Source: an uncultured Kordiimonas sp. (GTDB lineage Bacteria; Pseudomonadota; Alphaproteobacteria; Sphingomonadales; Kordiimonadaceae). From it: a stretch of DNA of 64,000 nt. The first letter of the stretch is position 1; each line of letters starts with the position of its first letter. Below, one piece after another: positions 3,905-16,545 of the stretch. The DNA lies in the NCBI GenBank assembly GCA_947492375.1, contig CANLMI010000001.1:248001-312000 (forward strand), given 5' to 3'. The notes under the pieces are model-generated. The model did not search any database and was not told the origin of the DNA. It worked only from the letters and a program-made list of their open reading frames with translations. The position numbers and the translations under genes are program-made.

Positions 3905-5608
3905 CTATAATTTGCCTTGTTGCATCTGTGTAGCCGCATAATCTACGGCACGTGCCGTTAGGGCCATGAATGTAAGTGATGGGTTCTGACACGCTGTAGA
4001 AGCAAATGCTGCCCCATCAGTAACAAAAACATTGTCGACATCATGACATTGATTATGAGCATTAAGAACAGATGTTTTCGGGTCACGCCCCATTCGTGCG
4101 CCACCCATTTCATGAATAGCAAGGCCTGGCGTTGGCTCTTTGTTGAAAGGTTGAATATCCTGACATCCTGCTTGTTCTAGCATTTCTATTGCTGTTTTCT
4201 GGATATCTTTACGCATTCTGCGTTCATTGTCAGACCATGACATATTCAAATGTACTTGTGGGATGCCATAGCTATCAGTTTTATTCGGATGAAGGGTTAT
4301 GGTGTTTTCTGCACGTGGCAGCATTTCACCAAAGCCACCAAAATACATATACCAGCCGCCTGGTTCCCTGAGTGAATGTTTGAAATCCGCACCATATCCT
4401 TTTTGGTCCATTCCTCGAGGCCATGATGGACGGGCCGCTTCGCCCTGAAAACCGTAGCCCCTGAGGAAATCGCCGTCTTTGGTATTCACATTGCGGAACC
4501 TTGGCATATAAAAGCCAGTTGGGCGTCGGCCGAAATAGTATTTATCCATAAAGCCGGGATACTGGCCTCTTGCCCCTACCTGATGGTGGTGGTCCATGAA
4601 ATATTTACCAAGAACACCGCTGGAATTTGCAAAACCATTTTGGAAGGTTTCAGATGTTGAATTCAATAGTATTTGGTTCGATGCAATCGTTGAAGCACAG
4701 AGGAAGACAACTTTCGCCGTGAAATCTTTTTTCTCACCGGTTTTGCGGTTGATTGTGCGTACGCCTGTTGCTTTTTTCGTTCCGGGGTCATATAGAACGC
4801 GCTCTACAACAGTGTCAGATACCAGTGTCATATTACCAGTATTGCTTGCTGCTGGAAGAGTAGCTGATACTGCGGAGAAATAAGCCCCAAATGAACACCC
4901 TCGTTGGCATTGGTTGCGGAACTGGCAGGAACCACGGCCCAGTTTAAGCTGTTCTTCTGTTGGCTTTGTTAAATGAGCAATCCGTCCGATGATCAGTTTT
5001 CTGTCATCATGTAGTGCTTCCAGCTTTGCTTTGGCATCCAACTCGACAGAATTTAATTCTATTGCGGGCTGGAAAATACTATCTGGCAATTGAGGTATGC
5101 CTTCTTCAGAGCCAGAAATGCCGACAAATTTTTCAACATATTCGTACCATGGTTTTACATCCGCATACCGGATTGGCCAATCGGTGCCGTATCCATCTTT
5201 TGCATTAGCGCCGAAGTCAAGGTCGCTCCAGCGATAGCTATGGCGTGCCCAAAGAATTGACTTTCCGCCGACCTGGTCACCGCGAATCCATGAAAACTTT
5301 TTTCCATCTTCAACAGAGTAAGGGTTTTCACGGTCATTAATGAAGAAGTTACGATCAGACTCTCGGAATGCATAACACTCACTTTGAATCGGATAATCAT
5401 TTTTCATCAGTTTTGGGTCAACACGGTCACGAAACTCCATATCCCACGGAGCTTTATTCTCGCCGACATAATCAACACCAGCCTCAACATCTCTGCCGCG
5501 TTCAAGCACGAGTGTTTTCATGCCTTTTTCACAAAATTCTTTTGCAGCCCAGCCACCAGACATGCCAGACCCGACAATAATTACATCAAATTGGACATCT
5601 TCAGTCAT
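3905..5608 (-). CDS. GMC-family FAD dehydrogenase large subunit (sugar 3-dehydrogenase-like)
   Basis: A 567-aa flavoprotein of the gluconate/fructose/glucose dehydrogenase branch of GMC oxidoreductases. The N-terminal Rossmann motif is VIIVGSGMSGGWAAKEF; the catalytic end has HEMGGARMG and TACQNPSLTFMAL, giving the conserved His and Asn. Residues 228, 234 and 238 are Cys in the spacing C-x5-C-x3-C, the arrangement that binds the 3Fe-4S cluster in Burkholderia FAD-glucose dehydrogenase. It has no signal peptide, as expected if it is carried through Tat by its small partner encoded just upstream. Caulobacter LacA/LacC and glycoside-3-dehydrogenases have the same two-subunit layout. No cytochrome c subunit gene is adjacent. 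Oxidation of a sugar C3 hydroxyl is inferred. Confidence 0.88.
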   Translation of the reverse strand: MTEDVQFDVIIVGSGMSGGWAAKEFCEKGMKTLVLERGRDVEAGVDYVGENKAPWDMEFRDRVDPKLMKNDYPIQSECYAFRESDRNFFINDRENPYSVEDGKKFSWIRGDQVGGKSILWARHSYRWSDLDFGANAKDGYGTDWPIRYADVKPWYEYVEKFVGISGSEEGIPQLPDSIFQPAIELNSVELDAKAKLEALHDDRKLIIGRIAHLTKPTEEQLKLGRGSCQFRNQCQRGCSFGAYFSAVSATLPAASNTGNMTLVSDTVVERVLYDPGTKKATGVRTINRKTGEKKDFTAKVVFLCASTIASNQILLNSTSETFQNGFANSSGVLGKYFMDHHHQVGARGQYPGFMDKYYFGRRPTGFYMPRFRNVNTKDGDFLRGYGFQGEAARPSWPRGMDQKGYGADFKHSLREPGGWYMYFGGFGEMLPRAENTITLHPNKTDSYGIPQVHLNMSWSDNERRMRKDIQKTAIEMLEQAGCQDIQPFNKEPTPGLAIHEMGGARMGRDPKTSVLNAHNQCHDVDNVFVTDGAAFASTACQNPSLTFMALTARAVDYAATQMQQGKL

Positions 5609-5624
5609 ATTTTTTCTCACTTTC

Positions 5625-6191
5625 TTAGATGCCACGGATCATCCAGGCGCGACCGATTTCTGAAAAATCAACATTACCGTCATATTTGCCAGGAACGGCT
5701 TCATATAAAACATCTTCGCTTGCTGCTTCTGATGTATAGTAGCCAAAAATAACCATTGAACGAATTTCACGCCAGATTGCATGTCCTTTAGTGGACGGGC
5801 CTTGGTTATCAAGCGCACTCAGGATTTTATGCTTCACATCTGCGGAGGCGCTGACAAAAGATTCCACGTTTTCAGCATGTGCCATTTCGTCAAAAATGGT
5901 GAGGCTTTCGATAAAACGTGTGCGTTCGGTTTCGGTATAATGCGATCCAATAACAGCTTGAATATATGCCGGTACACCTGCGCTTTTAGCGCCTGGTGTA
6001 TCGGTTTCAGGGATGATTAATTCACTGATTTCTTCGATAAGTGCCATGTAGGGGCTAAGCTGTTTTTCTACTTCCGGTGTGCAGGCACCAAGTGTGCTCA
6101 TCAGAGGCAGGGTAGCAGCGACACCAGTTGTTTTTAAAATGCGCCGTAAAGCATCGCGGCGAGTGACTATAGTGTTTTTATGATGATCCAT
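5625..6191 (-). CDS. Gluconate 2-dehydrogenase subunit 3-like small subunit, Tat-exported
   Basis: A 188-aa protein of the gluconate 2-dehydrogenase subunit 3 family, the small hitch-hiker partner of FAD sugar dehydrogenases. The N-terminus has the twin-arginine region TRRDALRRILK followed by a hydrophobic stretch and LGAC, which could also serve as a lipobox. Export of the folded flavin subunit as a complex is the known role of this family. It lies 16 bases before the large-subunit ATG and is co-transcribed with it. The central part contains the family's ISELIIPETDTPGA segment. It has no catalytic site of its own. Confidence 0.88.
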   Translation of the reverse strand: MDHHKNTIVTRRDALRRILKTTGVAATLPLMSTLGACTPEVEKQLSPYMALIEEISELIIPETDTPGAKSAGVPAYIQAVIGSHYTETERTRFIESLTIFDEMAHAENVESFVSASADVKHKILSALDNQGPSTKGHAIWREIRSMVIFGYYTSEAASEDVLYEAVPGKYDGNVDFSEIGRAWMIRGI

Positions 6192-6203
6192 TGTCCGCCT
6201 CTC

Positions 6204-7538
6204 TTACTCGGTTGTTTTAGATGCGTGGGTATTTTGGGAACGACGGCGATCAAGTAACCAGATAGAACCAAAAAGAACCAACAGAATTATAGGGAGCAAA
6301 GCAACTTGCTCAAAGGCCTCCGGCGCGGCCTGCGCTTCAAGTTCGCTTAGTTTTAAAATCGCTTCTGAACTGCCAGCCCCCACGTTTTCTTTGAGTGTGC
6401 CGAGGGCGTCTGCACCGCCGGCATACTTTGCCATCGAGGCATCGTACATGCGCCCAAAAACAGGAAGGACGAAATATATAGCAAGTGCGCCAGCCGAACC
6501 GATAAGGCCAATGAACCAGCTACCACCGCGCGCATAGCGCTCGGCAACAGAGGCCATCATCGTTGGCCACATGAAACAAACCCCGGTTCCCCAGAATGTT
6601 GCTGCTAGAAGTACCGTTACAGGGCCATCAGCTTGCGCCATGAGATAAAGCCCAATCATCGCCAAGAGACTAGATACCCATAAGAGGCCGGGGTTTGACA
6701 AGCGGTGGGCTAGCGGGCCAGCAAAGTGCCGCATAACAAACATGAGGGCCGATACATAAACAAGGACAAGGACAGCATTGAAACCAACTTTGGCAGATAG
6801 TGCTGCGTTCACCCATTGCCCCGGAGCAAGCTCAACCGTTGCTGTTAAGAACATGGCGCCAAACCAGATCAGAAAACTCGGAGCCCGAAAGACTTCAAGT
6901 AACATATCTTTCACTGAAATGCCGTCGGCGGCACGTTCGGTTTGTGGGAAGCGAACACCTAATGAGAGGACAATAACGCCAATTGCTGGAATAAGCGCTG
7001 TAGCCATTGCATATTCCCATGCGATAGAAAACTGACCAACCAAAAAGCCTGAAAGCCCGCCAACGATAATACCACCAGGCCACCAGGCATGCAGGACATT
7101 CAAACGGTGTGTCCGGTCTTCTGGGTAGAGGGATGTTGTCATTGGATTGATTGCAGCTTCCTGAGAGCCCCAACCAATGCCTTGAAGCAATAACCCAGTC
7201 CAGAACAAACTTTTTACCGTTTCAATATCAGCGGTGAAGCTTGCGCCAATTGTCAAGGAAACACCGATAATAAAACATAGGGCAGAGCCACGTAGAACGT
7301 TGCCAATGCCTATTTTGTCAAGCGCAGGACTTACAAAAAACAGGCTAAAGGCGTTGCCAAGGAATGCTGCGCCGAAAGCTCCTCCAATCAGTTCGCCTGC
7401 ATTGGCAAGGCCGCTGAATAAGTCATCGCGCATGGCGGTTAACAGCCCAGCGCGCAGACCAAAACACATCGCTGCCGTGAATAGCGCTAATACGCCAATC
7501 CAAAACAGACGAGTCCGATTATACTCGATTGATTCCAT
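6204..7538 (-). CDS. MFS transporter
   Basis: A 444-aa inner-membrane protein with about 12 hydrophobic segments and the layout of a sugar-type major facilitator. A polar central loop of the kind joining the two halves contains RFPQTERAADGISVKDMLLE. It sits between the small dehydrogenase subunit and an isomerase-like gene, so import of the oxidised sugar or its breakdown product from the periplasm is the simplest role. The start at 7538 is used because GGGGAGAG lies eight bases ahead. The C-terminal loop after the last helix pair is rich in Ala and Glu. The substrate is not known. Confidence 0.85.
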   Translation of the reverse strand: MESIEYNRTRLFWIGVLALFTAAMCFGLRAGLLTAMRDDLFSGLANAGELIGGAFGAAFLGNAFSLFFVSPALDKIGIGNVLRGSALCFIIGVSLTIGASFTADIETVKSLFWTGLLLQGIGWGSQEAAINPMTTSLYPEDRTHRLNVLHAWWPGGIIVGGLSGFLVGQFSIAWEYAMATALIPAIGVIVLSLGVRFPQTERAADGISVKDMLLEVFRAPSFLIWFGAMFLTATVELAPGQWVNAALSAKVGFNAVLVLVYVSALMFVMRHFAGPLAHRLSNPGLLWVSSLLAMIGLYLMAQADGPVTVLLAATFWGTGVCFMWPTMMASVAERYARGGSWFIGLIGSAGALAIYFVLPVFGRMYDASMAKYAGGADALGTLKENVGAGSSEAILKLSELEAQAAPEAFEQVALLPIILLVLFGSIWLLDRRRSQNTHASKTTE

Positions 7539-7610
7539 TATTCTCTCCCCTCCATACAATCGAAAAAGCCCGATTGTCCGGTATCCCCATACCGTTTTTG
7601 ATATTTTTAA

Positions 7611-8672
7611 TTAGCTTCTTTTTATGCCTAAAATCTGTAAATTCTTATCTGCATCAGCCTCGCCACCTGCAAAGTCATCAAAGGCATATTCAGCAGGTCT
7701 TATAATGTGGTCTGTGATAAAGGGGGCGCCTTCTGCTGCCCCCTGCTCAGGGTGTTTAAAACAGCATTCCCATTCAAGAACAGCCCAGCCGTCAAAGCCA
7801 TATTTCGTCAACTTGGTAAAAATCTGTTTGAAGTCGATCATACCGTCACCAAGAGAGCGAAAACGGCCAGCGCGGTCCTGCCAGTTTTCGTATCCACCGT
7901 AGACACCAGTGCGGGCGTCAGGCCTGAATTCCGCATCCTTGACGTGAAACGCTTTTATCCGGGAATGGTAGCGATCAATGAAACCTAGATAATCAAGTTG
8001 CTGGAGCATGAAATGGCTTGGATCATACAAGATATTTGCCCGTTTGTGCCCTTTAACAGCGTCAAGGAAACGTTCGAACGTTGCCCCGTCATGAAGGTCT
8101 TCGCCCGGATGGATTTCATAGCAAACATCGACACCATTTTCCTCGAATGTATTGAGGATTGGCACCCATAACTTTGCCAGCTCTTTAAAGCCTTCTTCTA
8201 CCAATCCTGCTGGTCGTTGAGGCCATGGATATGCCAGATGCCACATTAGGGATCCAGAAAAAGAGGCGCAGGATTTCAGGCCAAGCCTTCTGGATGCAAC
8301 AGCGGCCTTTTTCATCTGGTCAGTTGCCCATTCCTGGCGAGCTGATGAATTACCGTGGACAGCCTCTGGCGCAAACGCATCAAAAAGTTGGTCATATGCT
8401 GGATGAACAGCAACAAGTTGGCCTTGAAGGTGAGTTGATAGTTCAGTGATTTCAATGCCGTGCTCTGCACATCGTCCTTTTAGGTCATCACAGTAATCCT
8501 GACTTTCAGCCGCCAGATCCAAATCCATACACCGTATATCATTTGACGGAATTTGAACGCCTTTATACCCAAGAGAGGCAACCCATTCGACTATAGTGTC
8601 CAGTGTGTTGTAGGGAGCTTTATCGCCCATGAATTGGGCCAATAATATCCCGGGCCCTTTAATCTGTTTCAT
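7611..8672 (-). CDS. Sugar phosphate isomerase/epimerase-like TIM barrel protein (cytoplasmic)
   Basis: A 353-aa xylose-isomerase-like TIM barrel protein without a signal peptide. Family motifs are visible: CYEIHPGEDLHDG, NILYDPSHFMLQQLDY, AFHVKDAEF and VLEWECCF, giving the expected metal-binding Glu, Asp, His and Glu. Proteins of this type are often paired with Gfo/Idh/MocA oxidoreductases in inositol and keto-sugar pathways. Its ATG overlaps the stop of the upstream oxidoreductase gene by four bases (ATGA), which points to translational coupling. It is distinct from the exported TIM barrel at the end of the same operon, so one pathway may use one enzyme on each side of the membrane. Confidence 0.87.
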   Translation of the reverse strand: MKQIKGPGILLAQFMGDKAPYNTLDTIVEWVASLGYKGVQIPSNDIRCMDLDLAAESQDYCDDLKGRCAEHGIEITELSTHLQGQLVAVHPAYDQLFDAFAPEAVHGNSSARQEWATDQMKKAAVASRRLGLKSCASFSGSLMWHLAYPWPQRPAGLVEEGFKELAKLWVPILNTFEENGVDVCYEIHPGEDLHDGATFERFLDAVKGHKRANILYDPSHFMLQQLDYLGFIDRYHSRIKAFHVKDAEFRPDARTGVYGGYENWQDRAGRFRSLGDGMIDFKQIFTKLTKYGFDGWAVLEWECCFKHPEQGAAEGAPFITDHIIRPAEYAFDDFAGGEADADKNLQILGIKRS

Positions 8673-9844
8673 CGACTTTCCCCGTGTATATGATGTTCAA
8701 TTTCTGTCATGCTGGTGTTGGTTTCATTACTTTTCACAATAGCTTCCAGAAAAGCCATGCCGGCCAGTGCCTCTGTAATACCCGGTACCCCTTCAGCAGG
8801 TGCGGATTGGCCACTTCGTACAGCGGCTGCAAAGTTTTTATATAGATTTGCAAATGCTTCCAGATAGCCTTCGGGGTGCCCTGAAGGCAGGCGACAACGC
8901 GCGAGCGCCTCAGCACAAAGAGGTTTATCAATACCTGCCCGGTGAAGTATTATTACACCGTCTGTTCGGCGTTCTGTCAGGGTGTTGGGCTCCATCTGAT
9001 GCCATTCAAGGCTTGCCTTTTCCCCGTAAATACGAATTTTTAGAGAATTCTCTTCTCCTGTGCAGACCTGACTGGCTGTAAGAACACCCGTTGCACCGCC
9101 CGACAGGCCAAAGGATACTTCACCGTCGTCATCTAATTGGCGACCGGGAATATGGGTGCGTAACCGCGAACTGACCTCAGTCATTTGCTGCGCTGTAATA
9201 AATTCCACGAGGCTATGGGCATGCGATCCGATGTCGCCCATACATCCAGCTATGCCCGCGCGTTTGGGGTCGGTTCGCCACTCGGCTTGCTTACTACCGG
9301 TTTCTTCGGCATTAGAGCCCAGCCACCCTTGTGGGTATTCTACATAAATTCGTCTGATGGCACCGAAAGTTGATGCAGATGCAATATGTCTGGCTTGCCA
9401 AACCATTGGATAGCCAAGGTATGTATGAGTAAGGCCATACAAAACATTCGTGTCTGAGATAACGTCGGCTAAATTTTTAACTTCTTCACTGGATATGCCG
9501 GCTGGTTTGTCACACATTATATGAAAACCATTTTGCGCAGCGACAATTGAAATTGGCACATGCAGGTGATTGGGGGTAACGATACAGACGAATTCCATTC
9601 GCTGATCTTCAGGAAGTTTTTTTTCCGCCTCAAACATTTGTTCGTAATTTTTATATAGGCGGTCATCTGTCAGGCCAAGTGCGCGACCTGTCAGAAGTGT
9701 ATTTTCATGATTTTGGCTGAAAGCGCCACATACAAGTTCGATTTGACCATCGAGAGCCGCAGCCATTCGGTGTACAGCCCCTATGAAGGCGCCTTGACCG
9801 CCTCCAATCATTCCCATTCTAACTCGTTTATACATACTGTCCAT
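8669..9844 (-). CDS. Gfo/Idh/MocA family NAD(P)-dependent oxidoreductase
   Basis: A 391-aa cytoplasmic dehydrogenase. The N-terminal Rossmann domain has GMIGGGQGAFIGAVHR, and the family motif CDKPAG (EKPxx in most members) follows at about residue 112-117. The C-terminal alpha/beta domain has the catalytic-type segment GCMGDIGSHAHSLVEF. This family oxidises or reduces sugars and inositols; in keto-sugar pathways it can interconvert 3-keto-sugars with the parent sugar. It is the first gene of the six-gene leftward operon. The 126 bases upstream contain a TTGACAACG-like element. The start could also be the ATG three codons in. Confidence 0.88.
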   Translation of the reverse strand: MDSMYKRVRMGMIGGGQGAFIGAVHRMAAALDGQIELVCGAFSQNHENTLLTGRALGLTDDRLYKNYEQMFEAEKKLPEDQRMEFVCIVTPNHLHVPISIVAAQNGFHIMCDKPAGISSEEVKNLADVISDTNVLYGLTHTYLGYPMVWQARHIASASTFGAIRRIYVEYPQGWLGSNAEETGSKQAEWRTDPKRAGIAGCMGDIGSHAHSLVEFITAQQMTEVSSRLRTHIPGRQLDDDGEVSFGLSGGATGVLTASQVCTGEENSLKIRIYGEKASLEWHQMEPNTLTERRTDGVIILHRAGIDKPLCAEALARCRLPSGHPEGYLEAFANLYKNFAAAVRSGQSAPAEGVPGITEALAGMAFLEAIVKSNETNTSMTEIEHHIHGESR

Positions 9845-9970: not shown

Positions 9971-10657
9971 CTATGAAAGGCCCACAAGAAAACTGTTTAT
10001 TGTGACGCGGCCTTTAACGGGGTCCGTTGTTGGTATAAATGTTTTTCTTATGCTGCCTGAGTGTAAGGTTCGCCCGCGATAGATGATAAGCCGGTCAGGT
10101 TTGGCATCGATATCTCCAATCATTTCAAAACGCTCACTATCGCCGTAAATATACCTTTGGTCTGGCATTCCATAGGTTGCATCATCTTTGCGCATGGCTG
10201 AGCGGTAGGCTGTTACGCGTTCTGGTGTGATAGTTTCAAAGCCTGTGCTTTTATGGCGGTAAAAAGAAGTGCCGCCTGTTTCCTCGTCGCAGAGATAGTG
10301 CATAGCGGCAAGCAGGTTGGGGCTTGTGTCATCATAATGTGGAATGCACTGGGCGGGCCTTAATTTGTTCTGTGGGGTGCTAACGATAGAGAAAGAACTG
10401 CTTTCGATCGAGGCATCGCCGTTGAAGCCAAAAGCATCGCGCATTGCATCGCTTAATAGTCTTCCTTTATCCATTAGATAACGTGTATCGGCAGGGGCGC
10501 GGAGGCCGGGATATCCGGGGCCTGCGCTGTGATATTTGATCGAGGTGGAGGCACCGCGTAAATATTCAAGTTGCCCGCTAAAGTTTTCGATGATCACAAT
10601 AGGTTCTTTTTCTCTGCCGAAATGCTGGATTACATATTCTAAAGAAGGTTGGGGCAT
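9971..10657 (-). CDS. DUF6445 family protein (2OG-Fe dioxygenase-like)
   Basis: A 228-aa protein that I place in the DUF6445 family, commonly found beside tryptophan-halogenase-like genes in alphaproteobacterial TBDR loci. Visible motifs are PHYDD at the centre (an HxD-like metal pair) and RGRTLHSG near the C-terminus (a second His), the arrangement of a cupin-like Fe(II)/2-oxoglutarate oxygenase. Activity has not been shown to my knowledge. It faces away from the halogenase cluster across a 136-base divergent promoter region. A role in the same process as the halogenases is suggested by context only. Confidence 0.72.
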   Translation of the reverse strand: MPQPSLEYVIQHFGREKEPIVIIENFSGQLEYLRGASTSIKYHSAGPGYPGLRAPADTRYLMDKGRLLSDAMRDAFGFNGDASIESSSFSIVSTPQNKLRPAQCIPHYDDTSPNLLAAMHYLCDEETGGTSFYRHKSTGFETITPERVTAYRSAMRKDDATYGMPDQRYIYGDSERFEMIGDIDAKPDRLIIYRGRTLHSGSIRKTFIPTTDPVKGRVTINSFLVGLS

Positions 10658-10793: not shown

Positions 10794-12302
10794 GTGACCA
10801 ATAAGCCGGGGAAAATAGTGATTGTCGGTGGCGGCACCGCAGGCTGGATGACTGCGGCTGGGCTGGCAAGCATGCTGGGAAAAACAGGTCTTTCGATCAC
10901 ATTGGTCGAATCTGCTGCAATTGGTATTGTCGGTGTTGGCGAGGCAACTTTGCCTCATATTCGCTTTTTTAACGAGACAATAGGCGTTGATGAAGCAGAA
11001 TTTATGGCAGCAACATCTGCTACCTTCAAACTTGGTATTGAATTCGTTAATTGGGGCAAGCTCGGCGATAGTTACATTCACCCCTTTGGTGAATACGGGC
11101 TTGCCAATGCAGGGGTGCCGTTTCATCATTATTGGTTGAAAATGCGCGATCATCCTATGGTGGCTTCGCTCGATGAATATTCATTGCCTATTGTGGCGTG
11201 CCGAGAGGCTAAATTTCAGCCGCCTTCCAGAGACCCGAGATCTGTTTCTTCAACCTATCGGTATGCATATCAATTTGATGCACTTAAATATGCACCTTTC
11301 ATGCGCAAACATGCCGAAGAAAGAGGGGTAACACGTGTTGAAGGTAAGGTTGTTGATGTTGCGCTCGACGGGGATAGTGGCAACATTACATCGCTTAAGA
11401 TGGAATCAGGCGATACAATCGAAGGTGATTTCTTTATTGATTGCTCCGGTTTTATTGGCCTGTTGATCGAGAAGGCGCTTCAAACAGGATATGACACTTG
11501 GTCAAATTGGTTGCCGTGTGACAGGGCTGTTGCCGCTCCTTGTGAAAGCGCTGGTCCTTTGCTTCCCTATACCCGTGCAACTGCGGATAGTGCGGGGTGG
11601 CGCTGGCGCATACCGCTGCAACACCGCACAGGTAATGGCCATGTTTATGCCAGTGGGTTTACGTCAGATGAAACGGCGGAACGTGCGTTGGTGGATAACC
11701 TTGAAGGAGAGTTGATCGCTGATCCTCGCTTCTTGCGCTTTACAACGGGTAAGCGCAGAAAACTATGGAATAAAAATTGTGTTGCTATTGGTCTTTCAGG
11801 TGGCTTTCTGGAGCCATTAGAGTCAACCAGTATCTATCTGATTCAGGAGGGGATTACAAAGCTTATTGAATGTTTTCCTCAGAGTGAAAATTATGAAACA
11901 GATAGCACAGAATATAATAGTCAGATGGACCTTGAGTATGAGCGCATAAGAGATTTTCTTGTGTTGCATTATCATGCCACCGAGCGCGATGATTCTGAGT
12001 TCTGGAATTATATGCGAACAATGGAAATACCAACCTCACTGGCTGACAAGCTTGACCTGTTTCGAACACGCGGACGAGTGGCGGCCTATGATCATGGCCT
12101 GTTTCTTACACCGAGTTGGGTTGCAGTATATCTGGGACAAGGAATTATCCCGCGGGCATATGATAATCGTGCTGATGTTGTGGATGAAAGCGACACCCTG
12201 AAACACCTTAATGGGCTACGTCAACTAATGACATCGACAGTTGCAGGTATGACTGATCATTCGGACTATATCAAAACGAACAATATGGGGCTTGTAAGGT
12301 GA
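10794..12302 (+). CDS. Flavin-dependent tryptophan-halogenase-like protein (copy 1)
   Basis: A 502-aa flavoprotein of the tryptophan halogenase family. All hallmarks are present: the FAD motif GGGTAGW at 12-18, the lysine in TFKLGI at residue 79 (same number as catalytic Lys79 of PrnA), WRWRIP at 269-274 (the WxWxIP signature that blocks monooxygenase activity) and EPLESTS with Glu343 matching PrnA Glu346. Relatives beside TBDRs, such as BrvH of Brevundimonas and Xanthomonas enzymes, brominate indole in vitro, but their natural substrate is unknown. It starts with GTG after a weak ribosome site and overlaps the next gene by four bases. It is probably an active halogenase; a free L-tryptophan substrate is not implied. 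Confidence 0.9.
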   Translation: MTNKPGKIVIVGGGTAGWMTAAGLASMLGKTGLSITLVESAAIGIVGVGEATLPHIRFFNETIGVDEAEFMAATSATFKLGIEFVNWGKLGDSYIHPFGEYGLANAGVPFHHYWLKMRDHPMVASLDEYSLPIVACREAKFQPPSRDPRSVSSTYRYAYQFDALKYAPFMRKHAEERGVTRVEGKVVDVALDGDSGNITSLKMESGDTIEGDFFIDCSGFIGLLIEKALQTGYDTWSNWLPCDRAVAAPCESAGPLLPYTRATADSAGWRWRIPLQHRTGNGHVYASGFTSDETAERALVDNLEGELIADPRFLRFTTGKRRKLWNKNCVAIGLSGGFLEPLESTSIYLIQEGITKLIECFPQSENYETDSTEYNSQMDLEYERIRDFLVLHYHATERDDSEFWNYMRTMEIPTSLADKLDLFRTRGRVAAYDHGLFLTPSWVAVYLGQGIIPRAYDNRADVVDESDTLKHLNGLRQLMTSTVAGMTDHSDYIKTNNMGLVR

Positions 12303-13504
12303 CAACACAAAACGAGCCGATCCGCAAGATTATAGTTGTTGGGCAAGGCCTCAGGGTTTGGCTGGTTGCAAGCTATTTATCCGCAAGGTTTCCTGCACCA
12401 AGATATACCATTAAAGTAATATCCGAAAAAAATAAATCGGATATGGCTGAAGAAATAGCTGGCGATGATATTGTACATACGCGTCCGAATATTCGCCGCT
12501 TGCATCAACTTTTACAAATTACCGAGCGTGAACTTCAAATGGAAGCCAAAGCTCGGCCTGTATTCGGTGTTGAGGCTGTTAAGGCTGATGGGGCAAGGGT
12601 ATTATTGCCATACGGCGGCTATGGTCTTGATCAGGCAGGGGCAGAGTTTTTTCAGTATTGGCGGCGTGCAGATATAGAAGGCATGGCATTGCCGCTGAAA
12701 CGGTTTAATTTAGCGATTAGATTACATGAAGAAGGCAAATTTATTAATAAAGCGCCAGCAGGGTTTCCGCCGGTTGATTATGGTTATCAGTTTTCCAGAC
12801 CGGGATACAGCGGCCTGTTAAAACGATATGCCATCAATAATGGTGTTGAATATCTCGGTGCTTTTGAGAGTGTCAATACGCGCCAAGATAATCTTCTTGT
12901 AAGTCAGGTTCTTGCGGAAGGTAATATATTTGATTGTGATATGGTGATTGACGTGACAACCACTTTGAATATCGCAGAGGGGTCAAATCGCAGCGGTCAG
13001 ACTGGTTGGGTAGGCAATTGCCTGTCAATCGGGAGAGGGCCTTGTATTCCAGAAGTTCTTGGTATTCCCGAAGTTCCTGACATTCTTGGCGTTCCGGATA
13101 TTCCTGGCGTTGAGGTTTATATGTTACAGTCAGCGATGGATCGATTTGTTGCCCTGTTGCCAGATATGAATTTTCACGCCTGTGAAATCAATGAATATAA
13201 TCGCTTGGCAGATGCTGAATTGGCGCGCATTGAGGATATGGCTGATTTGCTTGCCTCGAATATTAAGGGAAAGGCCTTGCAAAGAAAGGTCGATGTTTTT
13301 CAGGCGCGTGGGCGTATTGTAAGCGAAGACTATGAAGTTTTTAGTAAGGCAGAGTGGCTGGCAGCTTTTATGGATGCAGGTATTTTACCTGAATATTATG
13401 ACAGGCTTGTCGACCGCGCTGATACAACTGAATTACAGGCATGGTTAAAACAGTTTGATAGCGCGCTTTGTCGTTTTGTTGAAAATAGTAGCGTATCGGG
13501 TTAG
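12299..13504 (+). CDS. Degenerate halogenase-like protein (copy 2), probably without FAD and catalysis
   Basis: A 401-aa paralogue of its neighbours, about 100 residues shorter. The fold is recognisable from segments such as YGGYGLDQAGAEFFQYW, YGYQFSRPGYSGLLKRYA, KVDVFQARGRIV and SKAEWLAAFMDAG. The glycine motif has become GQGLRVW, the TFKLGI lysine region is replaced, and the stretch holding DCSGF, WxWxIP and EPLEST is missing. In its place, residues 250-273 form four six-residue repeats of the type IPEVLG. The frame is intact and translationally coupled (GTGA overlap) to copy 1. This argues for a kept, non-enzymatic partner rather than fresh decay, though decay cannot be excluded. Confidence 0.78.
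   Translation: MTTQNEPIRKIIVVGQGLRVWLVASYLSARFPAPRYTIKVISEKNKSDMAEEIAGDDIVHTRPNIRRLHQLLQITERELQMEAKARPVFGVEAVKADGARVLLPYGGYGLDQAGAEFFQYWRRADIEGMALPLKRFNLAIRLHEEGKFINKAPAGFPPVDYGYQFSRPGYSGLLKRYAINNGVEYLGAFESVNTRQDNLLVSQVLAEGNIFDCDMVIDVTTTLNIAEGSNRSGQTGWVGNCLSIGRGPCIPEVLGIPEVPDILGVPDIPGVEVYMLQSAMDRFVALLPDMNFHACEINEYNRLADAELARIEDMADLLASNIKGKALQRKVDVFQARGRIVSEDYEVFSKAEWLAAFMDAGILPEYYDRLVDRADTTELQAWLKQFDSALCRFVENSSVSG
13046..13117 (+). repeat. Four 18-bp coding repeats (I-P-x-V hexapeptides)
   Basis: Four imperfect 18-base units encode IPEVLG, IPEVPD, ILGVPD and IPGVEV within copy 2. They occupy the place where the active halogenases carry the WxWxIP to EPLEST region. Slippage expansion is the likely origin. 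Confidence 0.8.
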
Positions 13505-13511
13505 GTGTCGG

Positions 13512-15035
13512 ATGAGTGAACTCATAGAAAATATTATTATTGTTGGTGGTGGCTCTGCGGGCTGGATGACAGCGGCAGCACTATCGAAACTGACAGGCAA
13601 AGCGGACGTATCTATTACTTTAATCGAGTCTGAAGATATTGGTACTGTTGGAGTTGGTGAAGCCACGATCCCCCATATTGCGCAATTTAATCAGTTTCTG
13701 GGTATCGACGAGGATCAATTTGTTCGAGAGACGCAGGCGACCTTCAAGCTTGGTATTGATTTTATCGACTGGGGGCAAAAGGGGGAAAAGTATTTCCATC
13801 CATTTGGGACGCATGGTTTCGATTTGGAGGGGATTAGTTTCCATCATTATTGGGCGAAATTAAACGAGCTCGGTGAAAAATCTCGTCTTGATGATTACTC
13901 ATTGAATGCGCTTGCTGCACATGCGGGTAAATTTATCCGGCCAAAACCAGAGCATGGCAGTGTTTTAAACAAGCTGGCTTATGCATTTCATTTCGACGCT
14001 GTCCTTTATGCACGGTTTTTACGAAAATATGCCGAAGCGCGCGGGGTGAAACGTATCGAGGGGCTTGTTCAGGATGTTAAACTGAACGCTGAGACAGGCT
14101 TTATTGAAGAACTACATGTGAATGAAGACAGGAAGTTGGCAGGTGATTTGTTCATTGACTGTTCGGGTTTTCGCGGTGTTCTAATAGAGCAGGCATTGAA
14201 GGCAGGGTATGATGACTGGAGCCACTATTTGCCTGTTGATCGTGCGGTTGCGGTTACAACTGAACGTATGGGGCCACTTATGCCGTATACACAGTCAACA
14301 GCCCGTGAGGCTGGATGGCAGTGGAAGATTCCATTACAGCACCGAACTGGAAATGGTTATGTTTATTCAAGTAAATTCATTGATAGTGAACAGGCTGAAA
14401 CGGATTTTAGGTCGGCACTTGATGGTAAATTACTGAAAGAGCCCAAGCATCTTCGGTTTGTAACGGGGCGTCGGCGAAAGTTTTGGGATAAAAATTGCGT
14501 GGCGATTGGTTTGTCTGCCGGTTTCATGGAGCCATTAGAATCCACCAGCCTTCATCTTATCCAAACGGGCATATCCAAGCTTATCGCGTTATTTCCTGAT
14601 AAAACGATGCCTAAGGTAGAGCGCGATGAATATAACCGATTGCTGAGCGATGACTATTTGCATATTCGTGATTTTCTTATCTTACATTATAAAGTGACCC
14701 GCCGAAATGATACGGCTTTCTGGGATTATGTTCGGGAAATGGATGTTCCTGACAGTTTTGTAAGAAAGCTGGAGCTTCTTAACTCACGCGGGCGCTTTTT
14801 TAAATATGATGCAGAACTTTTTGATCTGGTTAGCTGGTTAGCTGTTGCGGTGGGGCAGGGTGCTGAACTTGGAGGCTATAATCCAATGGTTGAGGGCTTG
14901 AGTGATGCCAATATACAGAAAAGCCTGTTGAATATGCGAAACCTGTTAAGCAAAACGGTTGCAGTAATGCCTGAGCACCAAGCATTTATTGATAAATTTT
15001 GTCGGGCTGATATTGCCCCGCATCAAGAGGCATAA
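13512..15035 (+). CDS. Flavin-dependent tryptophan-halogenase-like protein (copy 3)
   Basis: A 507-aa member of the tryptophan halogenase family with a complete motif set: GGGSAGW at 12-18, TFKLGI with Lys79, WQWKIP and MEPLESTS. It is similar to copies 1 and 4 over its whole length, so the cluster arose by tandem duplication followed by divergence. The start at 13512 is chosen because alignment with the other copies begins there and it lies eight bases after the copy 2 stop; an upstream in-frame ATG at 13455 would overlap copy 2. No flavin reductase gene is adjacent, though such enzymes need reduced FAD; a flavin reductase-like gene lies 40 kb away at 53179. The substrate is unknown. Confidence 0.9.
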   Translation: MSELIENIIIVGGGSAGWMTAAALSKLTGKADVSITLIESEDIGTVGVGEATIPHIAQFNQFLGIDEDQFVRETQATFKLGIDFIDWGQKGEKYFHPFGTHGFDLEGISFHHYWAKLNELGEKSRLDDYSLNALAAHAGKFIRPKPEHGSVLNKLAYAFHFDAVLYARFLRKYAEARGVKRIEGLVQDVKLNAETGFIEELHVNEDRKLAGDLFIDCSGFRGVLIEQALKAGYDDWSHYLPVDRAVAVTTERMGPLMPYTQSTAREAGWQWKIPLQHRTGNGYVYSSKFIDSEQAETDFRSALDGKLLKEPKHLRFVTGRRRKFWDKNCVAIGLSAGFMEPLESTSLHLIQTGISKLIALFPDKTMPKVERDEYNRLLSDDYLHIRDFLILHYKVTRRNDTAFWDYVREMDVPDSFVRKLELLNSRGRFFKYDAELFDLVSWLAVAVGQGAELGGYNPMVEGLSDANIQKSLLNMRNLLSKTVAVMPEHQAFIDKFCRADIAPHQEA

Positions 15036-15039
15036 GCTG

Positions 15040-16545
15040 ATGACACAAAAGATAGAAAAGATCGTAATTGTTGGTGGTGGAACAGCGGGCTGGATGGCTG
15101 CTGCTACTTTAGGGTCCTTGCTCAAGGGAACACAAACCAAAATCCAACTGATCGAATCAGAAGCCATAGGCACTGTTGGTGTTGGTGAGGCAACTATTCC
15201 ACCGATTATTATGTTTAATGATATGCTCGGGTTTGATGAAGATACTTTTGTCAAGGAAACTCAAGCGACCTTTAAGCTAGGCATTGAATTTAATAATTGG
15301 GGTAAATTGGGGGATAGCTATATTCACCCGTTTGGCGACTTTGGTATCGAGTTTGATGCAGTGCCTTTTTATCATTACTGGCTAAATCAGTCTTTTAATT
15401 CTGATGTGGGTGACCTGTTTGATTATTCGTTGATGGTTCAGGCTTGCCAGCACAATAAATTTATGCGCCCGCTTCGAGACAGGCCGCAGTCTGCCTTGGC
15501 CGGTATTAATTATGCCTTTCAGTTTGATGCAGGGCTTTATGCTGCTTATTTGCGTAAATATTCTGAAAGTCATGGGGTTGAACGTATTGAAGGGAAAGTC
15601 ATTGATGTTGAACTGGCTGATGAAACGGGGTTTGTTACTAAAGTTAGATTAGATGATGGAAACTTATATGATGCTGATTTCTTTATCGATTGTTCTGGCT
15701 TTCGAGGCTTGTTGATAGAGGGCGCACTAGAAACGGGATACGAAGACTGGCGACGTTGGTTGCCATGTGACCGGGCTGTCGCTATGGGGTGCGAAAAGGT
15801 AGGCCCGCCTATTCCTTACACGCGTGCCACAGCCAGAAGTGCAGGGTGGCAGTGGCGAATTCCTTTGCAACATCGTACTGGAAATGGGCACGTTTATTGT
15901 AGTGAATTTATCAGCGATGACGAGGCTTGTGAGGTTTTATCGTCTAATCTGGATGGTGCCCCGATTTCAGAACCGAATCAGCTCCGTTTTATGACAGGGC
16001 GCCGCCGGAAGTTTTGGAATAAAAATGTATTGGCTCTAGGGTTGGCTGCTGGATTTATGGAACCTCTGGAATCAACGAGTATCCATCTGATTCAAACCAG
16101 CCTTGCGCGTTTGTTAACTCATTTCCCGGATAAACGGTTTGTTCAAGCAGATATCGATGCGTTTAACGATAAAACGGTTTTAGAATACGAGCGAGTGCGA
16201 GATTTTCTTGTGCTTCATTATACGGCAACTGAGCGCGATGATACAGAATTCTGGCGTCATTGTCAGGCATTAGAGCGACCAGCTTCATTGATAAGAAAAC
16301 TGGAGCAGTTCGAGAGCGCCGGACGAATTTTTGAAGAGGCAAGTGATCCGTTTGGTGTCGCAAGTTGGCTGGCAGTTATGTATGGGCAAGGTATAAAACC
16401 TAAGGCTTATAATCCGATGACAGATAAGATGAGTCAGCAAAAAATTGCTTCTGTAATCAATCAGATAAAGGCAGCGATTGATAATTCGGTTGATGTAATG
16501 CCACAACATGACGAATTTATTCGTGAGAACTGTTCGGCCGGTTAA
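15040..16545 (+). CDS. Flavin-dependent tryptophan-halogenase-like protein (copy 4)
   Basis: A 501-aa halogenase-family flavoprotein with GGGTAGW at 12-18, Lys79 in TFKLGI, WQWRIP and MEPLESTS. It starts four bases after the stop of copy 3, continuing the tight operon. The start at 15040 fits the alignment with copies 1 and 3. Like them it keeps the Lys/Glu pair needed to make and place hypohalous acid, so it is predicted to be active. It is followed by a 314-base gap and a TBDR on the same strand. This pairing is known from carbohydrate-linked TBDR loci in Caulobacterales and Sphingomonadales, where the halogenase role is unexplained. Confidence 0.9.
   Translation: MTQKIEKIVIVGGGTAGWMAAATLGSLLKGTQTKIQLIESEAIGTVGVGEATIPPIIMFNDMLGFDEDTFVKETQATFKLGIEFNNWGKLGDSYIHPFGDFGIEFDAVPFYHYWLNQSFNSDVGDLFDYSLMVQACQHNKFMRPLRDRPQSALAGINYAFQFDAGLYAAYLRKYSESHGVERIEGKVIDVELADETGFVTKVRLDDGNLYDADFFIDCSGFRGLLIEGALETGYEDWRRWLPCDRAVAMGCEKVGPPIPYTRATARSAGWQWRIPLQHRTGNGHVYCSEFISDDEACEVLSSNLDGAPISEPNQLRFMTGRRRKFWNKNVLALGLAAGFMEPLESTSIHLIQTSLARLLTHFPDKRFVQADIDAFNDKTVLEYERVRDFLVLHYTATERDDTEFWRHCQALERPASLIRKLEQFESAGRIFEEASDPFGVASWLAVMYGQGIKPKAYNPMTDKMSQQKIASVINQIKAAIDNSVDVMPQHDEFIRENCSAG

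Follow-up and report, generated by a model that had tools for sequence, protein, structure and literature searches.

A conserved pseudo-halogenase and its candidate partner enzyme in halogenase arrays beside a TonB-dependent receptor

Introduction

Why would a bacterium keep a halogenase gene in an intact reading frame, in the middle of a row of active-type paralogues, when the residues that mark the enzyme as a halogenase have gone? The question is raised by the second gene (copy 2) of a four-gene array in the window, our term for the whole 64,000-nucleotide stretch of DNA analysed here, which comes from an uncultured Kordiimonas sp. The initial annotation had proposed that copy 2 is a pseudo-enzyme, retained because it forms a heteromer with the active copies or binds substrate. 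The tryptophan halogenases PrnA, RebH, PyrH and Thal act on the free amino acid, and we know of no native substrate for halogenases of the BrvH type. The activity of BrvH on indole is low, and indole may not be the substrate that it meets in nature, according to the excerpted text of PMC5945002. No description of a catalytically dead flavin-dependent halogenase, or of operons such as these, was found in the literature searched, which lay mostly outside subscription papers.

Results and discussion

The array and its neighbours

The four genes lie on the forward strand. Copies 1 (position 1; 10794–12302), 3 (13512–15035) and 4 (15040–16545, from the ATG that we chose as start within a longer listed ORF) match the halogenase profile PF04820 over its full length at 632–639 bits, and a motif scan found all halogenase motifs in each. 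Profile matches place a TonB-dependent receptor (TIGR01782; 16746–20063, forward strand, with a true start that may be downstream) after the array and, divergent from it on the reverse strand, a DUF6445 (PF20043) protein (9971–10657) and a block of five genes (3905–9844): a Gfo/Idh/MocA dehydrogenase (8669–9844), a sugar isomerase-like TIM barrel (7611–8672), a transporter (6204–7559), a gluconate-2-dehydrogenase subunit-3-like protein (5625–6191) and a GMC oxidoreductase (3905–5635). The five genes of this block we take to suggest oxidative glycoside breakdown, and the imported substrate may for that reason be an aromatic glycoside, which is a guess on our part.

Copy 2 keeps its frame and lacks the catalytic residues

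Copy 2 (12299–13504, forward strand) begins with GTG and runs for 401 amino acids with no internal stop. Its start overlaps the TGA of copy 1 in the four bases GTGA (12299–12302), and the ATG of copy 3 begins 7 bases past its stop, bearing out the full frame and tight coupling described in the initial annotation. PF04820 is the sole Pfam family that it matches (130.5 bits against a cut-off of 21), in two stretches that cover profile positions 1–211 and 337–457 in the genome search, so that the middle of the family profile is missing. Its family behaves alike: each of the 15 short sequences aligned matches PF04820, and none matches a second Pfam family.

Alignment with the active copies places GQGLRVW (residues 15–21; 12341–12361) at the site of the GxGxxG FAD motif, which has the form GGGxAGW in active copies. 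Val88 (12560–12562) occupies the site of the catalytic lysine (Lys79 of copy 3, K83 of BrvH), and Pro269-Gly270 (13103–13108) aligns with the catalytic Glu343-Ser344 of copy 3, Pro269 standing where EPLEST has its glutamate; copy 2 reads DIPGVEV where active copies have EPLEST. The WxWxIP motif falls inside a stretch that is mostly deleted, not just mutated, corresponding to copy-3 positions 218–315, and the FAD 'box' is shorter by about 100 residues. We take the catalytic lysine to be K79 in PrnA and the EPLEST glutamate to be E346 in PrnA and E349 in BrvH. The lysine is needed in BrvH, where the K83A variant is inactive (PMC5945002, in the excerpted text). Each of the losses listed in the initial annotation (FAD motif, lysine, WxWxIP and EPLEST) holds in the alignment, which adds the deletion that it had missed.

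Judged from its sequence, copy 2 is a PF04820 halogenase homologue that fails every residue test that we made for an active halogenase. It is without the residues, and without much of the domain, for binding FAD and for making or using hypohalous acid, and the known halogenase chemistry presumably cannot run in it. A heteromer with active copies, or binding of substrate, would fit this anatomy.

The site of the lost halide loop has a further peculiarity in the window, where an 18-base imperfect tandem repeat (13046–13111, forward strand) replaces the EPLEST loop and encodes a proline-rich IPEV/VPDI stretch, modelled with low pLDDT at residues 248–265. The insertion was seen in the window's copy 2 only, one of 15 aligned members.

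Predicted fold and uneven conservation

Of all PDB entries, BrvH (6frl) scored highest against an AlphaFold2 model of copy 2 built on an alignment of 15 sequences (pLDDT 83.5, pTM 0.85), at Z 31.1, 24% identity and an rmsd of 2.6 over 368 residues, with Xcc4156 (6y1w) at Z 30.4; structure prediction shows copy 2 to have the BrvH-type halogenase fold. For the active copies too, the closest relatives of solved structure are these two and 9luq, but copy 2 differs from BrvH and Xcc4156 in being without the FAD motif, lysine, WxWxIP, Glu/Ser pair and about 100 box residues. With PrnA, RebH, PyrH and Thal it shares the fold at Z of about 25–27, but it retains none of their catalytic set. Since all 15 family members match PF04820 and BrvH is the top match of the model, the halogenase homology of copy 2 is above chance.

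The limits of box and pyramid were taken from BrvH (excerpted text of PMC5945002) and carried from BrvH to copy 3 by an offset that is good to a few residues. On these limits, themselves good to a few residues, copy 2 retains a first pyramid segment at about residues 104–160 (12608–12778) and a second at about residues 322–398 (13262–13492), which shows the highest conservation in the family and bears the signature RK...GRI..EDYE.F...EW. Across 15 loci, position occupancy in copy 2 is 0.97 in the pyramid and 0.61 in the box, and mean column identity is 0.448 and 0.308, respectively, the reverse of copies 1, 3 and 4, where the box is better conserved (pyramid/box ratios of 0.85, 0.93 and 0.88). 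For copy 2, dN in the box exceeded that in the pyramid in 6 of 6 close pairs; dN/dS showed the contrast clearly in the Erythrobacter trio (0.15–0.22 for box versus 0.06–0.08 for pyramid), and in the Sphingorhabdus trio it was mixed and once reversed. In the longer stripped copies of other clusters, described below, it is almost absent (column identity 0.268 for pyramid vs 0.255 for box). By these measures the pyramid, as the putative docking and groove surface, is the part of copy 2 that selection appears to have preserved best.

Within the second segment, Glu352 (13352–13354) is near-invariant in copy 2, at a site with serine in 45 of 45 active copies from these loci; by offset it corresponds to S447 of BrvH, a contact to the indole ring in the excerpted text of PMC5945002. 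Glu or Asp occupies this site in 27 of 42 stripped copies of all kinds, and Ser in 42 of 43 position-1 genes. R62, E343, E346, E352, R369 and W382 of copy 2 are likewise near-invariant, and are absent or only partly shared in active copies. Such a set would suit a protein that has gained a new, FAD-independent catalytic activity, but no cluster of catalytic residues was recognised in copy 2 and the Pfam matches of the 15 short members begin and end with PF04820, leaving a new activity quite improbable.

Orthologues of the short form and selection

Among 396 genomes of the order, seven further genomes carry relatives of copy 2, at 36–42% identity over the full length or in pieces at 31–44%, and in all seven the array reads active–short–active–active, followed by the TonB receptor; the relative in an eighth genome (G374) is solitary. 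Orthologues of copy 1 at 70% identity or more were found in 8 of the 396 genomes, the very 8 that have a full copy 2; outside them the best match reached 60%. A scan of one genome per species, covering 84,980 species, gave 16 loci of this short form, with titles naming Sphingorhabdus, Erythrobacter, Pontixanthobacter, Altererythrobacter, Aurantiacibacter and uncultured Sphingomonadaceae. The four-gene order is present in 14 of the 16; L091 is cut by a contig end after the first gene, and L094 (Aurantiacibacter sp. D1-12, the G374 locus) has the short gene alone with no halogenase nearby. The TonB receptor follows the array in 11 of the 14 four-gene loci, the other three ending soon after the array. 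A class-wide search with a short-family profile (E of 1e-25 or better) gave a full-length match in the window's genome only, among 385, and the named short-form loci are all Sphingomonadales, which suggests that the short form is confined to that order.

The neighbourhood is more variable than the array. All five genes of the divergent block adjoin it in 10 of the 16 short-form loci, and the block is partial in L080 and in L091 (the latter at its contig end). It was not seen near the array in L079 and L081, where the DUF6445 gene is directly upstream instead; L080 has the DUF6445 gene as well as its part of the block, and neither was seen in L092. The transporters of L082–L084, L086 and L090 match that of the window at about 600–660 bits; those of L085, L087, L088, L089, L091 and L093 do so at only about 144–157 bits, and their slot seems to be taken by a different transporter.

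In a tree of the array genes, copies 1, 2, 3 and 4 form one clade each (support 100/100, 100/100, 100/99 and 100/100), and orthologues with the same losses as copy 2 sit in the same operon slot. Six close pairs with usable dS gave dN/dS of 0.135–0.184 for copy 2 and 0.025–0.076 for copies 1, 3 and 4, showing copy 2 to be constrained, yet more loosely than the active enzymes. We left out pairs whose dS exceeded about 1.4 or was saturated in copy 2, and comparisons with the copy 2 of L093 (0.20–0.54) were set aside as unsure because a 121-base gap before that gene suggests a frame error in the draft genome. All complete orthologues of copy 2 have intact frames.

The outcome that the initial annotation linked to recent decay, namely no orthologues and neutral dN/dS, did not occur, and recent decay was rejected given intact orthologues in one clade under purifying selection. 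A dN/dS several times that of the neighbouring copies, and large deletions, are what a decaying remnant might display, but intact frames in all complete orthologues, a single old origin and ratios far below 1 contradict decay for the close pairs tested, and we regard it as extremely improbable. Catalytic residues have been lost from copy 2 while its frame and its predicted fold are conserved under selection, and copy 2 is almost certainly a pseudo-enzyme that selection maintains.

One stripped copy, in second place, across halogenase arrays

The survey covered 136 sources, with catalytic positions scored by profile (A for the presence of Lys and Glu, d for loss of both, p for loss of Lys with Glu retained); active-type genes have the lysine by definition (226 of 226). 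Loci L066–L077 and L079–L094 were picked via matches to copy 2 and L114–L123 via copy-1-like genes. A further 100 regions (L124–L223) were taken around active copy-3 matches in 376 genomes of the class and 388 of the phylum and were not selected for stripped copies; the copy-3 place in G854 was left out and regions already in the sample were not added again. Duplicates (L081, L082, L083 and L088) were removed before distinct counts, and the array scan ran without L079, which duplicates L066, without L091, which a contig end truncates, and without L094, whose gene is that of L073, a scanned locus.

Exactly one stripped copy, always the second gene, was found in 38 of 38 arrays of at least three genes (34 of 34 distinct), comprising 28 AdAA, 5 AdA, 4 ApA and 1 ApAA. 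Two-gene arrays scored as 14 AA, 8 Ad and 1 Ap. The Ap pair in L077 (9331–12101) was rejected as a stripped copy, being a frame-broken pair of ordinary copies, and is out of the stripped counts. In the 100 unselected regions, a stripped copy was present in 6 of 6 arrays of at least three genes and in 7 two-gene arrays (Ad), alongside 14 two-gene arrays with two active-type copies. The ten clusters picked via copy-1-like genes (57–60% identity) each have one longer stripped copy in second place, and this longer form is present in other parts of the class and phylum as well (L124–L126, L158, L182, L208 and L209). The catalytic lysine is present in none of 42 stripped copies (10 of them unaligned at the site), and 5 of 42 retain the EPLEST glutamate; GxGxxG persists in some of the longer stripped copies from other clusters. 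A 117-row tree separated 28 stripped copies from all active copies at a branch with SH-aLRT of 100, long branches in the tree making the order within the stripped side unsure and possibly adding to the grouping. On this split, independent losses in each genome were rejected. Trees and substitution ratios together show copy 2 to descend from one old stripped lineage and to be under purifying selection. Its relatives make up a pseudo-enzyme family inside a well-studied enzyme class, and the rule of one stripped copy in second place can be checked in other genomes.

A tie to the position-1 halogenase

In gene order and phylogeny, the stripped gene is shown to be genetically tied to one clade of active halogenases, that of the gene just before it. 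A FastTree phylogeny of the 226 active-type genes recovered a clade of 43 (support 0.875) made up of all 42 genes with a stripped copy directly behind them and a single further gene; none of the other 183 precedes a stripped copy. The 43rd member, L076_8504, is followed by a frame that has Ser for Lys, no EPLEST and an end cut by the contig. Support for the position-1 clade was modest (54/99) in a 64-row tree that placed 22 position-1 rows on one side of the branch, and five long-branch rows sit inside the clade in the 117-row tree. In arrays that are split over two strands (L077, L132, L136 and L142), position 1 and the stripped gene stay together, the other two genes forming a second pair (frame-broken in L077). 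The start of the stripped gene overlaps the position-1 stop by four bases in 26 of 42 arrays. The association with a specific active paralogue is constant with one orphan exception, the lone short gene of L094.

The retention of copy 2 as a pseudo-enzyme, as first suggested, has held up and is a general rule in the survey, but the partner is narrower than the initial annotation had it: the data point to copy 1 as the candidate, rather than to copies 1, 3 and 4 alike.

The orphan bears on a second reading, in which copy 2, by itself or as a homomer, serves to bind or carry the imported substrate or the halogenated product and hands it over with no stable complex. A lineage that keeps the gene with no halogenase nearby is what a carrier would allow, as are a near-invariant Glu352 at a known substrate-contact site and a pyramid segment conserved better than the rest of the protein. 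A free carrier would not need to be tied so strictly to a single halogenase clade and to the place just after it, and we consider this reading unlikely.

The four-base overlap would favour assembly during translation, which also suits a copy 2 that regulates the position-1 enzyme or helps it to fold, by activation, release of inhibition or chaperoning. The trypanosome AdoMetDC prozyme offers a precedent: a dead paralogue beside an active one, which forms a heterodimer with AdoMetDC and activates it (PMC5201418, in the excerpted text). The enzyme is unrelated, and a heterodimer is in the case of copy 2 a hypothesis. A regulator or chaperone is hard to tell from a heteromer by sequence, and we rate it as rather improbable.

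Two observations concern the position-1 genes and the solitary gene themselves. Tyr, Gly and Arg stand at copy-3 positions 432, 435 and 459 in 98%, 98% and 88% of the position-1 clade, compared with 20%, 1% and 2% of non-position-1 genes, close to the loop that in copy 2 carries an EDYE signature of its own. The solitary pseudo-halogenase of L094 (9410–10399, the same as L073:9619–10608) has a long branch, and a new role or a late stage of loss are both possible for it.

A putative two-part halogenase

The best explanation, to which we lean without pressing it far, is that the pseudo-halogenase forms a pair with the position-1 enzyme and has a part in holding a large substrate. The conserved pseudo-halogenase would dock its pyramid on that of the position-1 halogenase, much as two identical pyramids meet in halogenase homodimers, to give a heteromer of one active and one dead protomer. 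Pairing through the pyramids is suggested because the pyramid is the best kept part of copy 2 and the known chemistry appears impossible in it. In known halogenases two pyramids nest to form the dimer (excerpted text of PMC11840605), and BrvH is a dimer of this type (PMC5945002, likewise in excerpt). The dead protomer would stabilise or activate position 1 and might also offer a remodelled groove, with an acidic residue at the site of the substrate-contact serine, that helps to hold a large substrate delivered by the TonB receptor. Of these parts, physical partnership with position 1 is somewhat favoured, and a substrate-holding role is put forward more tentatively.

Several points count against the heteromer. 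Genes of one operon are co-inherited whether or not their products touch; L094 is an orphan; the Sphingorhabdus dN/dS is mixed and the longer stripped copies show a weak contrast; support for the position-1 clade is modest; and the pyramid shows no clear enrichment of position-1-specific residues (5 of 138 vs 6 of 354).

It is conceivable, at a strength short of an even chance, that multi-halogenase TonB operons encode a two-part halogenase, made of an active position-1 enzyme and an obligate, fast-evolving dead subunit, with the heteromer as the natural unit that sets the substrate. If so, a position-1 enzyme assayed alone would lack its partner, and halogenases encoded in arrays beside an outer-membrane importer may work with a dead partner. 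A dead partner tied to one halogenase clade would offer a concrete and testable way in to the native substrates.

Other halogenase-like frames were met along the way. The window's own genome has a further weak PF04820 match (G000:C2:535488–536603) in a 585-aa open frame. L075:8898–10145 is a 415-aa halogenase frame without the N-terminal FAD motif and lysine part, which keeps WxWxIP and the glutamate and is perhaps a frame break. Two more halogenase-like open frames, one of 1028 aa at G128:C1:2251780 and one of 764 aa at G349:C7:310439, may be fusions.
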